A stretch of 40,758 nucleotides of DNA from Candidatus Babeliales bacterium (GTDB taxonomy: Bacteria > Babelota > Babeliae > Babelales > UASB340): NCBI GenBank assembly GCA_023133515.1, contig JAGLWI010000007.1, forward strand, positions 1 to 40,758, given 5' to 3'. A program made the position numbers and the translations under genes. The notes under the pieces are model-generated. The model searched no databases. It was not told the origin of the DNA and worked only from the letters and a program-made list of their open reading frames with translations. Of this stretch, positions 3 to 14,719 are shown in pieces. Numbering within the stretch: position 1 is the first letter of the stretch; the number at the start of each line of letters is the position of its first letter.

Positions 3-2942
3 TGTACAGATTTTTTTGATTCAGTTACATGGATAAAAGATGGCGGAAATTATGGTCTTGATCTTTCATGGAGTCCAGATGGAAGATTTTTAGCTATGGG
101 AGCAAGGGTTGATACGCCAACAAGTGAGTTAGAGGATTTAACAATTTACGAATGGGATGGTTTTAAGCTTGCTTATAAAGATAAAATAGCATTTCCTTCT
201 CGGTGTTATGCTGTGGATTGGAGCCCAGATGGAAGATTTTTGGCAGCTGGTGGGAATGTAGGTACTCCAACAGGTGAGTTGAATGATCTTGTAATTTATG
301 AATGGAATGGTTCTTCTCTTATTTATAAAACGCAAAAAGCGCATGGGACTCAAGTTATGGGGTTATCATGGAGTCCAAATGGAATTTATTTGGCTGTTGC
401 AGGACTTAATGGAACTGATGATTTAATAGTTTATGGATGGGATGGTTCTTCTCTTACTCAATTAGATACAAAAGATGCAACAACAAGTTTTAATAAATTG
501 TCATGGAGTTTAGATGGAAAATATTTGGCTATTACAGGAAATAATGATCCAAAGGATTTGATAGTTTATGAATGGAATGGATTAATTCTTACTGAAAAAG
601 ATACAAAAAATTATGCAAATTATGCTGAATCTGTTGATTGGAGTCCAGATGGAAGATTCTTGGCTGTTGGTGCATATGATGGAACTGATGATTTGATAGT
701 TTATAGTTGGAACGGTTCTTCTCTTGCTCAACTAGATACAAAAGATTTTAGTGGAAGATGTAGATCGGTTTCATGGAGCCAAGATGGTAAATATTTGGCA
801 GCAGGTGGATTAAATGATCCTAATGATGTGATAGTTTATGAATGGAATGGTTCTTCTCTTACTCAATTAGATACAAAATATCATGGAGGTCAAGTTATTT
901 ATTTATTATGGAGTCCAGATGGAAAATATTTGGCTGTTACAGGATTGAATGGAACTGAGGATTTTATTCTTTATAGAAGATTTGGATGTATAGATGGCAC
1001 AAAAAAAGTACGACAATTTTATAATAATTTTACTTTCGATGATTGTGGTTCTGTTGGCGGAATAATAAATTTTGAAAATGGAATTGAAGTTGGGCAAAGC
1101 AAAACAGTTGTTTTAAATTTGCAAGTACCTATTAAAGGTAAAATAGACCTTAATAATTCAGCAACAATAGAATTAGAATCTGATTTATATTTAGGTTCAG
1201 ATGCATATTTTTATGATGGTGGAAAAATTTATGGGAATGGAAATGCTTTATTTTTATCTGGAAATTTTACCACATCAACAGATTCAGTTATTCATATTTC
1301 AGGTGATACAATAATTGATGGTCAATATAATAATTTTGAACTTGGAAAATGGAGTCAGATTTTTGTTGATACAGATGTTACATTAACGTTAAGAAATTTG
1401 ACATTAAAAAACATGAGAAACAATCAAGGTTTTCCCCCAGTAAGATTAGCAGCACATGGAAGCAAGTTGGCACTTGATAATGTTGTTATTGCACCAAATT
1501 GTGATTTTTATTTTCCAGAAGGACAACTTTTTATTTACAACGATGTATCATTCACAGGAACTCACAGATTTATTTACAACTCAACACAACCAAGTAGAAT
1601 AATGTCACAAGCAACATGGAGTTTTGAGCCAAATACATCTTTTTATTATGATACGGCAAGTTCTTATTCAACAGATATAAATCTACCATCATCTACATTA
1701 GAAAAACCATTACACAATGAATTAATGATTATGGAAGATGATACATCTTCTTTATATCTAAATGATTGTACTTTTCAAATGTCACACACTGGTCTTAGAT
1801 TGACAAAAGGAAGAATGTTTATTGATGATAATGTAATAATTAAAAATGATGAAACATATACATTTTCATATTTAACAACACAGACAAGTTTTCATTTAGG
1901 GGATTATCTTTATGATGTTGCGTGGAGTTTAGATGGAAGATATTTGGCTATTGCAGGAGAAAATGGAACTCAAGATTTAATGATTTATGAATGGAATGGA
2001 TTAATTCTTACAATAACAGATTCAAAAAATTCGGCAAATTATTTTGTAGGAGTTTCATGGAGTCCAGATGGAAAATATTTGGCGGTAGGAGGAGATAATG
2101 GAACTGAAGATTTAATAGTTTATGGATGGGATGGTTCAAGTCTTACCTCATTAGATACAAAGAGTCATGGAAATTATGCTAAATCTGTTGATTGGAGTCC
2201 AGATGGAAAATATTTGGCGGTAGGAGGATATAATGGAGTTGAAGATTTAATAGTTTATGGGTGGGATGGTTCAAGTCTTACCTCATTAGATACAAAAAAT
2301 TATGGATTTTATATTAAATCTGTAGATTGGAGTTCAGATGGAAAATATTTGGCGGTAGGAGGAGATAATGGAACTGAAGATTTAATAGTTTATGGATGGG
2401 ATGGTTCAAGTCTTATCTCATTAGATACAGAAAATCATGTTCATTGTGTAAGAGACGTATCATGGAGTCCAGATGGAAGATATTTGGCTATTGGTATATA
2501 TAATGGAAATGAAAATTTAATAATTTATGAATGGAATGGATCAAGTCTTTCAAAATTGATAATAGTATCTTTAACAAATTTTTCAAATGTAGTATGGAGC
2601 CCAGATGGAAAATATTTAACAGTTGTTATATATGGTGGTTTAATAATTTATGAATGGGATGGTTTAAGTCTTACAGAATTAGCTACAAAAAATCCAATAA
2701 ATGTTTTTTTTGATGTTTTATGGAGTTTTGATGGAAAGTATTTGGCGGTTATTGGAAATAATGATAATCAAGATGTGATAATTTACAACGTTAACTATTT
2801 AACAGAAAATTATGCACCTTCATACAAAAATGGATTTATAATTGGAGATTCTTCAAAAGGTTTAGAATATGATTTGGATGTTTTTATTCTTGGCGGATCT
2901 AATTTAGATATGCGAGGTACAGTTTTTTATGATGATGTATAA
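3..2942 (+). CDS. WD-like (beta-propeller) repeat protein, 5' end outside window
   Basis: The frame is open from base 3 to the stop at 2942, so the ATG at 96 is internal and the true start lies left of the window. Two arrays of a repeat with core W-S-P-D-G-[KR]-[YF]-L-A are visible. Seven cores lie before about base 970 and seven after about base 1900, each followed by a D-L-I-V-Y-x-W-D/N-G strand. This is the layout of WD40/TolB-like propeller blades, and seven plus seven suggests two propellers. Between them sit about 310 residues rich in short beta strands and Asn/Gly/Thr, perhaps a beta-helix. The last 45 residues resemble the start of another such segment. Three blades (2071-2430) are near-identical at the DNA level with an exact 135-bp spacing, implying recent internal duplication. 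It is probably exported or surface-bound, but no signal peptide can be seen. Function unknown; likely a binding scaffold. Confidence 0.85.
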   Translation, partial: CTDFFDSVTWIKDGGNYGLDLSWSPDGRFLAMGARVDTPTSELEDLTIYEWDGFKLAYKDKIAFPSRCYAVDWSPDGRFLAAGGNVGTPTGELNDLVIYEWNGSSLIYKTQKAHGTQVMGLSWSPNGIYLAVAGLNGTDDLIVYGWDGSSLTQLDTKDATTSFNKLSWSLDGKYLAITGNNDPKDLIVYEWNGLILTEKDTKNYANYAESVDWSPDGRFLAVGAYDGTDDLIVYSWNGSSLAQLDTKDFSGRCRSVSWSQDGKYLAAGGLNDPNDVIVYEWNGSSLTQLDTKYHGGQVIYLLWSPDGKYLAVTGLNGTEDFILYRRFGCIDGTKKVRQFYNNFTFDDCGSVGGIINFENGIEVGQSKTVVLNLQVPIKGKIDLNNSATIELESDLYLGSDAYFYDGGKIYGNGNALFLSGNFTTSTDSVIHISGDTIIDGQYNNFELGKWSQIFVDTDVTLTLRNLTLKNMRNNQGFPPVRLAAHGSKLALDNVVIAPNCDFYFPEGQLFIYNDVSFTGTHRFIYNSTQPSRIMSQATWSFEPNTSFYYDTASSYSTDINLPSSTLEKPLHNELMIMEDDTSSLYLNDCTFQMSHTGLRLTKGRMFIDDNVIIKNDETYTFSYLTTQTSFHLGDYLYDVAWSLDGRYLAIAGENGTQDLMIYEWNGLILTITDSKNSANYFVGVSWSPDGKYLAVGGDNGTEDLIVYGWDGSSLTSLDTKSHGNYAKSVDWSPDGKYLAVGGYNGVEDLIVYGWDGSSLTSLDTKNYGFYIKSVDWSSDGKYLAVGGDNGTEDLIVYGWDGSSLISLDTENHVHCVRDVSWSPDGRYLAIGIYNGNENLIIYEWNGSSLSKLIIVSLTNFSNVVWSPDGKYLTVVIYGGLIIYEWDGLSLTELATKNPINVFFDVLWSFDGKYLAVIGNNDNQDVIIYNVNYLTENYAPSYKNGFIIGDSSKGLEYDLDVFILGGSNLDMRGTVFYDDV
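2071..2430 (+). repeat. Tandem 135-bp coding repeats (three near-identical WD-like blades)
   Basis: The 10-mer gaaaatattt followed by ggcggtagga recurs at 2071, 2206 and 2341, exactly 135 bp (45 codons) apart. Long stretches after each copy are almost identical. The first and third copies differ at only a few bases over about 90 nt. Other blades in the gene are more diverged, so these three are the youngest duplicates and a likely site of copy-number variation. Confidence 0.85.
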
Positions 2943-3124
2943 AAAATAAAAATTTATTTTAAAGATACAGTATCTTAAAGTTCATATGAAAATTATTTTT
3001 TACTTAAATTTGTTTATATTTTTGTATAAGCTTTTAATTTAATTATTTCTTCTTCAATGTTTTGTTAATATTGATAAACTATAGAAAAGCTGTAATTTTA
3101 AAAATCAATAATTTTTTATTTATC

Positions 3125-3727
3125 ATGACAGAAAAAAATTCTTTTTATAATCAGATTTTAGAAGACAAAAAATTTTTTACTCTTTCAAATGGTTTAACAT
3201 TTTTAAGAATTTTATTAACGCCAGTAATTGTGATTGGTATTTTTTATGAAAAATGGACTTTAGTTTTTTTGCTGATTTTGTTTGCAGGTGTAACAGATGT
3301 TTTGGATGGTTATGTGGCGCGTGCTTTTAATCAAATTACGAATTTGGGTAAAATTTTGGATCCTATTGCGGACAAAATTTTGTTGATTTGCTGTTTTGCT
3401 GCGTTAGCTTTTTTACAATCTCCATCTTTTCCTATTCCAAAATGGTTTGTATTATTTATTGTTTGTAGAGAATCAATTATAATTTTTGGTTCATATGTAA
3501 TTGTAAAAACTGGCAGAAAATTTAAAGTTGAGCCAACATGGAGTGGAAAACTGACAACACTTTTTCAACTTATTTTTATTTTGTGGCTTTTTATTTGTTA
3601 TTTTTTTGGGTGGGTTCCTGCTCGTACATATCATACGCTTTTAGTTTTATTGCCCCTTTTTTCTATTTTATCTTTGTTGCAATACATAAAAATTGGAACA
3701 GGTTATTTTAATAAAAAAAATTATTGA
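3125..3727 (+). CDS. pgsA: CDP-alcohol phosphatidyltransferase, probably PgsA
   Basis: This is a 200-aa integral membrane enzyme. It carries the full CDP-alcohol phosphotransferase signature D-x2-D-G-x2-A-R-x8-G-x3-D-x3-D at residues 58-83, whose four Asp bind the catalytic metals. Several hydrophobic helices follow. The N-terminal S-N-G-L-T-F-L-R-I-L-L-T-P block is typical of PgsA, which makes phosphatidylglycerol phosphate from CDP-diacylglycerol and glycerol-3-phosphate. Phosphatidylserine synthase is less likely given that N-terminus and the length. I chose the ATG at 3125. An upstream TTG at 3062 would add 21 residues outside the family's usual start. Neither start has a clear Shine-Dalgarno sequence. 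Confidence 0.85.
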   Translation: MTEKNSFYNQILEDKKFFTLSNGLTFLRILLTPVIVIGIFYEKWTLVFLLILFAGVTDVLDGYVARAFNQITNLGKILDPIADKILLICCFAALAFLQSPSFPIPKWFVLFIVCRESIIIFGSYVIVKTGRKFKVEPTWSGKLTTLFQLIFILWLFICYFFGWVPARTYHTLLVLLPLFSILSLLQYIKIGTGYFNKKNY

Positions 3728-3751
3728 AAAGCGTTGCATTTTTATATATTT

Positions 3752-3778
3752 TTGGCAAACTAGCGTTTAGTTTATGAT
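3752..3778 (+). promoter_or_regulatory. Candidate promoter for the 3913 gene
   Basis: A TTGGCA hexamer at 3752-3757 and TATGAT at 3773-3778 are separated by 15 nt, slightly short for a sigma70-type promoter. They lie just after pgsA and would give a transcript with a leader of about 130 nt before the start at 3913. Prediction from sequence pattern only. Confidence 0.3.
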
Positions 3779-3792
3779 GGTTTTAAAAATTA

Positions 3793-3817
3793 AAGGAGGA
3801 TTTAATACATGTTTTAG
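3793..3817 (+). promoter_or_regulatory. Strong Shine-Dalgarno followed by a two-codon ORF in a leader
   Basis: A consensus aaaggagga ends about 8 nt before an ATG at 3809, but the frame is ATG-TTT-TAG and stops at once. It lies 96 nt upstream of the real start at 3913, in a different frame. It may be a ribosome-loading or start-stop regulatory element, or the remnant of a decayed gene. Confidence 0.4.
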
Positions 3818-3912
3818 AAATACTTGTTTTGTGGAAATTTGTATTTGGGTGGGGAAGAGATTTTGATAGGATTTAAAAATTAGGTTTTGTTAACAGACGA
3901 AAAGGTTGATAA

Positions 3913-4563
3913 ATGAATATTAAAAAATATTTGGCTAGTATTTTAGCTGTTGCATTTGTTGTTGGAATTCAGGCTGAGACAAATGAGCGTGGAAGAAAAG
4001 CAAAAAAGAATAATATGAGTCAGATTTTGGAAGCACATAAAGAAGCTATCATTACTGGTGCTGCTGCAACAGCTGTTGGACTTGGTTTGGCTATGGGAAC
4101 ATATTATAAAGGAAAAAGCAAAGGTAAAAACATTGGAATTGGAGCAAGACTTTTTGAAAAATTGTCATATTATCTTAACAAAATAGATAAAGATTATGAC
4201 AACGCTGCTACAAGCGAAAAGAAAAAGTATTTGAATGATGAAATTGAAAAACTTAATACCGATAGAAAAAAATTAGTAAAATCAAACGCAAAGTTGGAAA
4301 ACGATAAAGAAAAAAATGCTGATTCTATAATTACAAATAATAAAGATATTAAAGTTATTGACATGGAATTAAAGTATAATGAAGATCTTAAATTAGTAGA
4401 CCAAAATAATCGTGAAGATAAAAAACTTGTTGCTATGAAAGAACTTGAATTATATTATTATAAAAATATAAGAAAAGAAGTTAAGAGTCGCATAGACAAC
4501 ATTCATAATAAAGTTGTTCCTCAAGCAGAAAAAGTAGATGATAGCAAAAAGGAAACAAAATAA
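3913..4563 (+). CDS. Exported protein: Gly/Ala-rich helix plus coiled coil, unknown function
   Basis: This is a 216-aa protein I do not recognise. Residues 1-21 look like a signal peptide ending at an Ala-rich cleavage site (G-I-Q-A). A second hydrophobic Gly/Ala-rich helix spans roughly 46-64 and is followed by Lys-rich residues. From about 80 to 200 the sequence is highly charged (K, E, D, N) with heptad-like spacing, so a long coiled coil is likely. The layout (signal, short linker, Gly/Ala helix, charged tail) matches the products at 6356 and 7578. The start is fixed by the signal peptide. A hairpin terminator follows at 4616-4670. It probably sits in the inner membrane with a periplasmic or cytoplasmic coiled-coil tail; the role is unknown. 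Confidence 0.75.
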   Translation: MNIKKYLASILAVAFVVGIQAETNERGRKAKKNNMSQILEAHKEAIITGAAATAVGLGLAMGTYYKGKSKGKNIGIGARLFEKLSYYLNKIDKDYDNAATSEKKKYLNDEIEKLNTDRKKLVKSNAKLENDKEKNADSIITNNKDIKVIDMELKYNEDLKLVDQNNREDKKLVAMKELELYYYKNIRKEVKSRIDNIHNKVVPQAEKVDDSKKETK

Positions 4564-12904: not shown

Positions 12905-13579
12905 ATGAATGAATTACTGTTTTTTTTGCATATTATGATTGTTGTGTTTTTTACATTATCCTCGCTTGCTTTGGGGCGTAATGCGCTTGTTGCTGTTGTG
13001 TGTTTGCAGGCGGTATTGGCAAATTTTTTTGTTTTGAAGCAGATATCACTTTTTGGTCTTAATGTTACTTGTGGTAATGTTTTTGTTGTTGGTAGTGTGT
13101 TAGGTTTAAATTTATTGCAAGAGTATTTTGGGAAAAGTATTACAAAAAAAACCATATGGATTAGTTTTTTTTTATTATTTTTTTATCTTGTAATGACACA
13201 AATTCATCTTTTATATATTCCTAATTCTTATGATAATACTCAGAGTTTGTTTTCTGGACTTTTGGGTTTTATGCCAAGAATTACTATTGTTTCAATCTTT
13301 GGCTATTTTGTAGCTCAAAAAACAGGATATTTTTTATATGGTTTTTTAAAAAAGATGTTTTCTGAAAATTATCTTGTATTAAGAAACATTTTGACAATTT
13401 CTTCTACTCAGTTTTTAGATACAGTTTTATTTACATTTTTTGGCCTTTATGGAATTGTAGAATCTGTTTTAAACGTGATGATTTTAAGTTTTGTTATCAA
13501 GATGGTTATTATTTTGGTCTCATCTCCTTTTGTATCTTTTTCAAAAAAAATTGTAAACCGATTTAATCAAGATTTATAG
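12905..13579 (+). CDS. yhhQ: Queuosine precursor transporter, YhhQ/VUT family
   Basis: This is a 224-aa membrane protein with about six helices. The blocks V-L-K-Q-I-S-L-F-G-L-N-V-T and G-L-N-L-L-Q-E-Y-F-G-K are characteristic of the VUT (vitamin uptake transporter) family that includes YhhQ, which imports queuosine precursors (preQ0, preQ1 or queuine, depending on species). The gene ends 9 nt before tgt, the enzyme that inserts such bases into tRNA. That strongly supports the function. The substrate is inferred to be host queuine from the features of the neighbouring Tgt. Confidence 0.9.
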   Translation: MNELLFFLHIMIVVFFTLSSLALGRNALVAVVCLQAVLANFFVLKQISLFGLNVTCGNVFVVGSVLGLNLLQEYFGKSITKKTIWISFFLLFFYLVMTQIHLLYIPNSYDNTQSLFSGLLGFMPRITIVSIFGYFVAQKTGYFLYGFLKKMFSENYLVLRNILTISSTQFLDTVLFTFFGLYGIVESVLNVMILSFVIKMVIILVSSPFVSFSKKIVNRFNQDL

Positions 13580-13588
13580 AGTTTAATT

Positions 13589-14719
13589 ATGGAAAAGTTT
13601 AAATTTGAAGTTTTATACAAATCAAAAAAATCTCGTGCTAGAGTTGGACGAATTTATACTTCACATGGTGTAATTGATACACCCAGTTTTGTGGCTGTTG
13701 GAACTAATGGAACATTAAAAGCAGTAGACAACAAAATAGTTGATTTTTTAGGATTACAACTTATGTTTTGTAATACATATCATCTTTTGTTACATCCAGG
13801 AGTTGATTTAATAAAAAAAGCTGGGGGAATTCATAAGTTTGCAAGTAGAAATGGCCCAATTATTACAGATTCTGGTGGATTTCAGGTTTTTAGTCTTGCT
13901 TATGGAAGTGTTTGTGAAGAATTGAAAAGCAAGGGTACAAAAAAGCATAATGGAGGAGTTCTAAAAATAAATGAAGATGGAGTTTTGTTCCGTTCATACA
14001 GAGATGGTTCTAAAATTTTATTAACACCTGAAAGTTCTATAGAAGCACAAAAGAAGATTGGTGCAGATATTATTGTAAGTTTTGATGAGCTTCCTCCTTA
14101 TCATATTGATAATAAGAAATTACAAGAATCTTTAGATCGAACACATCGTTGGGAAAAACGTTCTTTGGATGCGCATTTGAAAAATAAAAATAATCAAGCT
14201 TTGTATTCTGTAATTCACGGTGGAGTTGATAAAGAGTTGCGAAAAAAAAGCTGTGAGTATTTAAAAACGTTACCGTTTGATGGTTTTGCAATTGGAGGGA
14301 GTGTTGGTAAGGATCGTCAAGAAATGTTGCAAATGCTTAAATTTTTAATGCCAATTTTGCCAGAAAACAAACCAAATCATCTTTTAGGAATTGGAGATAT
14401 TGAGTCAATTAAAGGAATAATTCCTTTTGGTGTAGATACTTTTGATAGTTCGCATCCAACAAGATGTGCACGTCATGGTCTTTTGTTTACAAAAAAGGGA
14501 ACACTACGAATTTTAAAGAGTGGTAATTCACAAGTTTTTAGGCCAATAGAGGATGATTGTTTATGTTCTACATGTCAAAATTATACTCTTTCTTATATTT
14601 ATCATCTTTTTAAAGCAAATGAATTGAGTGCATTGACTCTTGCTACTATTCATAATATTCATTTTATGATTGAACTTTTAAAAGAGTATCAAGGTAAAAT
14701 TCTTCGTGATGAGATTTAG
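13589..14719 (+). CDS. tgt: Queuine/preQ1 tRNA-ribosyltransferase, Chlamydia-like
   Basis: This is a 376-aa Tgt. It swaps guanine 34 of GUN-anticodon tRNAs for a deazaguanine base. Catalytic D94 (T-D-S-G-G-F-Q) and D286 (T-F-D-S-S-H-P-T-R) are present, as are zinc ligands C324, C326, C329 and H355. Pocket residues differ from the preQ1-using Zymomonas enzyme (numbering from memory): Cys158 is L168 (F-D-E-L), Gln203 is H210 (I-H-G-G-V), and Val233 is G240 (G-G-S-V-G-K). Eukaryotic queuine enzymes also lack the Cys and have Gly at 233. The F-D-E-L, V-I-H-G-G and G-G-S-x-G-K blocks and an insert near residues 105-123 recall Chlamydia Tgt. The stop overlaps that of the convergent gene. Confidence 0.96.
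   Translation: MEKFKFEVLYKSKKSRARVGRIYTSHGVIDTPSFVAVGTNGTLKAVDNKIVDFLGLQLMFCNTYHLLLHPGVDLIKKAGGIHKFASRNGPIITDSGGFQVFSLAYGSVCEELKSKGTKKHNGGVLKINEDGVLFRSYRDGSKILLTPESSIEAQKKIGADIIVSFDELPPYHIDNKKLQESLDRTHRWEKRSLDAHLKNKNNQALYSVIHGGVDKELRKKSCEYLKTLPFDGFAIGGSVGKDRQEMLQMLKFLMPILPENKPNHLLGIGDIESIKGIIPFGVDTFDSSHPTRCARHGLLFTKKGTLRILKSGNSQVFRPIEDDCLCSTCQNYTLSYIYHLFKANELSALTLATIHNIHFMIELLKEYQGKILRDEI

Follow-up and report, generated by a model that had tools for sequence, protein, structure and literature searches.

A linked transporter and tRNA-guanine transglycosylase gene pair in Dependentiae as a probable route of direct queuine salvage from the host

In a 40,758-nt stretch of DNA from a Candidatus Babeliales bacterium (contig 11 of the source bin; hereafter the window), we describe two adjacent genes of the phylum Dependentiae, one encoding a queuosine-precursor transporter (QPTR; YhhQ/COG1738) and the other a tRNA-guanine(34) transglycosylase (Tgt), which, judged from their sequences and from the genomes around them, very likely make up a minimal route for the direct salvage of queuine from the host. 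On this reading, direct queuine salvage by an intracellular bacterium, which is known from experiment in Chlamydia, would hold for nearly an entire phylum that parasitizes protists, and a phylum-wide dependence on host queuine is predicted.

The QPTR gene, the proposed queuine importer, occupies 12905..13579 on the + strand and encodes 224 aa that match TIGR00697 with 132 bits (curated cut-off 51) and Pfam Vut_1 (PF02592) with 88 bits (cut-off 27). By direct reading, a spacer of 9 nt (13580..13588, + strand) separates it from tgt (13589..14719, + strand), whose 376-aa product, which we assign to a putative queuine-salvage type, scores 393 bits against TIGR00430 (curated cut-off 307). The close yhhQ-tgt arrangement described in the first-pass annotation is thus borne out by the ORF coordinates, the shared strand and scores above curated cut-offs, and co-transcription of the pair is probable. 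Of the 90 genomes that carry both genes, 57 have QPTR immediately ahead of tgt, and in a further 16 the two are at most 6 kb apart on the same strand, a count that leaves out one genome (G097, QPTR offset -39771). The nearest named relative of the window Tgt, found in a scan of a contig collection, is from a Candidatus Dependentiae bin (68% identity). The AlphaFold model of the protein (pLDDT 85.8) has a normal TGT fold, with Z. mobilis TGT giving the best PDB matches at a TM of about 0.9, and the zinc ligands C324, C326, C329 and H355 are intact. The catalytic residues Asp94 (D102), Asp166 (D156) and Asp283 (D280) are invariant in all 90 Dependentiae Tgts that were compared. No preQ1 riboswitch was found in the window.

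The biosynthetic pathway was sought by profile searches at curated cut-offs, covering QueA, QueC, QueD, QueF, QueG and QueH. The sample comprised 101 Dependentiae genomes, 68 of them at least 90% complete, and the 100 phylum relatives of the source bin all fell in one order. QueA, QueD, QueF, QueG and QueH had no match in the source genome (1.03 Mb, 84.6% complete), and across the 101 genomes QueD had no match, while QueC, QueF, QueG and QueH nowhere exceeded the cut-off. The control genomes matched each of these six models, albeit only 2 of 14 for QueH, so the absences of the Que proteins are meaningful. QueT gave no match over its cut-off, and the Qng1 model matched none of the control genomes. 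QueA exceeded the cut-off in 1 of the 101 genomes, a 66%-complete bin (G052) where it sits on the margin of a contig of only 3.4 kb; we regard it as doubtful, as the contig carries unrelated ORFs and is probably a contaminant. A complete de novo queuosine pathway, which would speak against salvage, is absent from the searched genome, with QueC appearing as a sub-threshold match only. Judged by these searches, the Dependentiae have evidently lost queuosine synthesis over nearly the whole phylum and have kept the transporter and the insertion enzyme.

Two QueC-like genes were considered and set aside. The QueC-like ATPase of the source genome (G000:C7:139154-140020; 2655-3521 of locus L109) was rejected as a biosynthetic QueC because it reached 34.5 bits where the cut-off is 150, also matched ThiI and has a signal-like start. 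It adjoins a gene resembling 2-thiouracil desulfurase (3542-4072 of the same locus; 28.5 bits, below the cut-off), and its product is possibly a secreted or sulfur-related enzyme. The other, in genome G057 (C16, L110), was rejected as a queuosine gene by its neighbours, which are dGTPase-, kinase- and DNA-glycosylase-like genes together with an McrBC-like restriction pair and not queuosine genes; the neighbourhood looks like a defence island.

Tgt itself was found in 99 of the 101 genomes and QPTR in 90. G036 and G074, which are 95% and 97% complete, have neither gene, an apparent joint loss, and in nine genomes with Tgt the transporter was not detected. Among the genomes in which QPTR was not detected is a subgroup of family f2 (G013, G014, G015, G016 and G008; loci L112, L113, L108, L114 and L105), where Tgt is missing two or all three of the zinc Cys residues, so that a changed or decaying system is possible there. 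Irrespective of whether QPTR is present, tgt is followed in many Dependentiae by a SpoU-type methyltransferase gene, with an amino-acid permease gene nearby (e.g., L112, L113, L114, L172, L175, L177, L179, L180 and L184); in the window these genes do not adjoin tgt. The permease as a substitute for QPTR in the genomes without it is a weakened proposal, as the same tgt-spoU-permease order is found in genomes that bear QPTR.

The Tgts retained by these genomes share an unusual pocket. Residue numbers 158, 203, 233 and 235 follow Z. mobilis Tgt, and the window protein was aligned with the Tgts of Z. mobilis, T. maritima and E. coli. Two of the substitutions read in the first-pass annotation, Cys158 to Leu168 (codon 14090..14092, + strand) and Gln203 to His210 (codon 14216..14218, + strand), were unambiguous against all three references, and each residue is present in 89 of 90 Dependentiae Tgts, the one remaining enzyme being unreadable at the leucine position; the reference Tgts have Gln at 203. 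Among the 22 reference Tgts, Leu at 158 occurs only in the four from Actinomycetes, the Acetoanaerobium row being discounted for residue counts as not the Tgt ORF. The third substitution, Val233 to Gly240, stood under one gap placement and failed under the other. The loop at residues 236-241 (14294..14311, + strand) reads GG-SVGK in place of GGLAVGE, and since one residue is deleted, the identity of position 233 hangs on where the gap is placed: a gap before Ser puts Val239 there, and a gap after Gly puts Gly240 there, which is also how PMC12301720 reads the chlamydial group. Neither the deletion nor the replacement of Glu235 by Lys241 is mentioned in the first-pass annotation. G236, G237, S238 and G240 are present in 90/90 Dependentiae Tgts and K241 in 85/90, such that the loop reads GGS[VLIMF]G across the 90 near-complete enzymes and GGSVG in the window. 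Human QTRT1 retains the Glu equivalent to Glu235. The insert noticed earlier near residue 110 does exist, with the segment from F101 to R135 being 34-35 residues long in Dependentiae as against 16 in most bacteria and 41-48 in Actinomycetes; by this segment length it adds some 18 residues downstream of FSLAYG (approximately 105-123; 13901..13957, + strand), and it is poorly resolved in the AlphaFold model, with pLDDT below 50 at 106-112 and 114-121. Given their near-invariance across the phylum, the pocket changes are not a matter of chance.

Positions 158 and 233 are those to which mutational and structural studies attribute the choice of substrate (PMC3660597, PMC6165067), and Glu235 secures the guanine/preQ1 peptide switch (PMC3660597). 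In Z. mobilis Tgt, Cys158Val raised the Km for preQ1 more than tenfold, and Cys158Val combined with Val233Gly gained no use of queuine (PMC3660597); since this graft failed to confer queuine use, the pocket residues are insufficient and by themselves no proof. The published motif for a queuine-type pocket, GG[LS][AS]G (PMC11570991), is not fully fitted by the GGSVG of the window, with Val, Leu, Ile, Met or Phe standing across the phylum where Ala or Ser is expected.

Taken together, the missing pathway and the altered pocket allow a simple route to be proposed. Through QPTR, the bacterium would take across its membrane the free queuine that its protist host releases or stores, and Tgt would swap the wobble guanine of tRNAs with GUN anticodons for queuine in one step, which would make QueA and QueG/H dispensable. 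Leu158, the shortened GG-S-x-G loop without Glu235, and His203 would leave room for the cyclopentenediol and disfavour preQ1. We infer, then, that queuine is the base carried by QPTR and preferred by Tgt and that the host supplies it. The source bin has the candidate target tRNAs for Asn(GUU), His(GUG) and Asp(GUC), each with U33-G34-U35; none of the 34 tRNAs detected was tRNA-Tyr(GUA), a gap that probably reflects the incompleteness of the bin (84.6% complete). Eukaryotes are generally unable to make queuine, and host and parasite would therefore compete for a scarce, food-derived micronutrient. As to the setting, the phylum has been described as strictly intracellular in protists (PMC12172432), and Chromulinavorax imports most of its metabolites (PMC6561590). 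The import of host queuine and its direct attachment to tRNA, as first proposed for this locus, are supported by the missing pathway in the genome and the phylum and by pocket changes that match, for Gly233 under one gap placement, the published type of C. trachomatis and the related BL-TGTs.

With QueA and QueG/QueH missing, preQ1 could not be converted to queuosine, and it follows that either queuine is inserted directly or the tRNA stops at preQ1. The latter would be the case if the pair salvaged preQ1 (or preQ0), for instance from the bacterial prey of the host, and left the tRNA at preQ1 in the manner of Bartonella henselae. A genome with tgt and QPTR and without QueA/QueG can indeed operate in a preQ1 mode (PMC11570991), and membership in the QPTR family does not by itself distinguish preQ1 from queuine. 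However, Bartonella has retained the E. coli-type GGLAVG pocket, whereas Dependentiae have changes at Cys158, at Glu235 and in the length of the loop that are all fixed phylum-wide, and the more than tenfold higher preQ1 Km of Z. mobilis Cys158Val (PMC3660597) also argues against this explanation, which we regard as very unlikely. That the enzyme is a relic with no queuine role, exchanging only guanine or some other 7-deazapurine, seems highly improbable. Queuosine-type pathways do decay in reduced genomes, and the five genomes of one family without zinc-ligand Cys residues and QPTR would fit such a decay; yet the catalytic Asp residues are kept in 90 of 90 enzymes, the zinc Cys/His ligands of the window protein are intact, its gene is open, and tgt is linked to QPTR in most genomes. 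Direct salvage of queuine is the preferred account of the function of the pair.

A further question concerns the origin of the gene and not its function. The first-pass annotation had considered tgt as acquired from, or shared with, Chlamydiae, and in a review, Manna and Harman (2016) are given as concluding a chlamydial origin for the TGT of Babela massiliensis, inside Acanthamoeba (PMC13305018). The C. trachomatis pocket is also common to BL-TGTs (PMC12301720), and the part of the claim that speaks of a shared type accords with the literature. The part that would have Tgt recently acquired from Chlamydiae inside an amoeba is opposed by its presence in 99 of the 101 genomes and by the trees, and we hold it to be quite unlikely. 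In a tree of 31 sampled Dependentiae and 22 reference Tgts, from which the pocket and insert columns had been removed, the Dependentiae enzymes formed one group with respect to the references (support 100/100). The tree of the 90 Tgts within the phylum tracked the GTDB families, with 13 changes against a minimum of 10 and a shuffled mean of 52.9; being family-structured and phylum-wide, it argues against recent acquisition. The trees indicate that tgt is old and vertically inherited in Dependentiae, and argue that any transfer would predate most of the radiation of the phylum, a pattern that corrects the idea of a late transfer into Babela within an amoeba. Without the pocket and insert columns, the Actinomycete Tgts were sister to those of Dependentiae (99/96); as the alternative splits around this grouping were not rejected in AU tests (p-AU 0.46 and 0.48) and both branches are long, the relationship is suggestive only. 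It can be envisioned that the bacterial Tgts of queuine type go back to a single ancient origin and were inherited or exchanged among Dependentiae, Actinomycetes and Chlamydiae, such that the 'chlamydial' Tgt of amoebae, algae and other protists could come from Dependentiae-like parasites and not from Chlamydiae, but we consider this scenario unlikely. Homologue scans returned one Dependentiae and one Clostridia locus and no Chlamydiae from the contig collection, no Tgt from viral contigs, and other bacterial Tgts only, again with no Chlamydiae, from the plasmid and phage collections. One Klebsiella plasmid carries a divergent Tgt-like gene (325-1410 of locus L134) immediately ahead of rmtD1, which encodes a 16S rRNA methyltransferase.

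Among known systems, Chlamydia trachomatis is the closest in kind. According to the published accounts, its Tgt and QPTR use queuine without QueA, QueG or QueH (PMC11570991, PMC11130926; PMC12301720 too cites Yuan et al. 2019), and together with related BL-TGTs its enzyme has Leu at 158 and Gly at 233 (PMC12301720). Like the Dependentiae, it has tgt and QPTR, is missing QueA and QueG/QueH and lives within a eukaryote; by the published residue reading it shares Leu158, and Gly233 is shared under one gap placement. This comparison follows the published description and covers gene content, positions 158 and 233 and the intracellular habit. For Actinomycetota, salvage of queuine has been predicted (PMC11130926), and like the Dependentiae enzymes their Tgts (Nocardia, Arthrobacter and Tsukamurella; L126, L129, L131 and L132) have Leu158, carry an insert in the corresponding position and lack Glu235 in a GG loop that is shortened, but the loop is two residues shorter still (GG-AL--EK), Gln203 is kept and the insert is longer. 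Bartonella henselae resembles the Dependentiae in that only tgt and QPTR are retained, but it differs in its E. coli-type GGLAVG pocket and preference for preQ1 (PMC11570991). The eukaryotic QTRT1 likewise has no Cys158, has Phe at 106 and has small residues around the cyclopentene, but it carries Val161 at 158 and Gly232-Gly233 in an undeleted loop and works with QTRT2, whereas the window Tgt has Leu, a one-residue deletion and Lys for Glu235, and the gene pair shows no second subunit. The near-invariant pocket of the 90 enzymes (Leu158, the loop deletion, Lys for Glu235 and His203) suggests a way of achieving specificity for queuine that differs from the eukaryotic one and can be tested. Our literature search found no paper joining Dependentiae and queuosine. 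The mechanism in C. trachomatis and a chlamydial-type TGT in Babela are already known, and what is new here is that the system extends across the phylum, that tgt has been passed on vertically and that the loop has lost one residue as well as Glu235.
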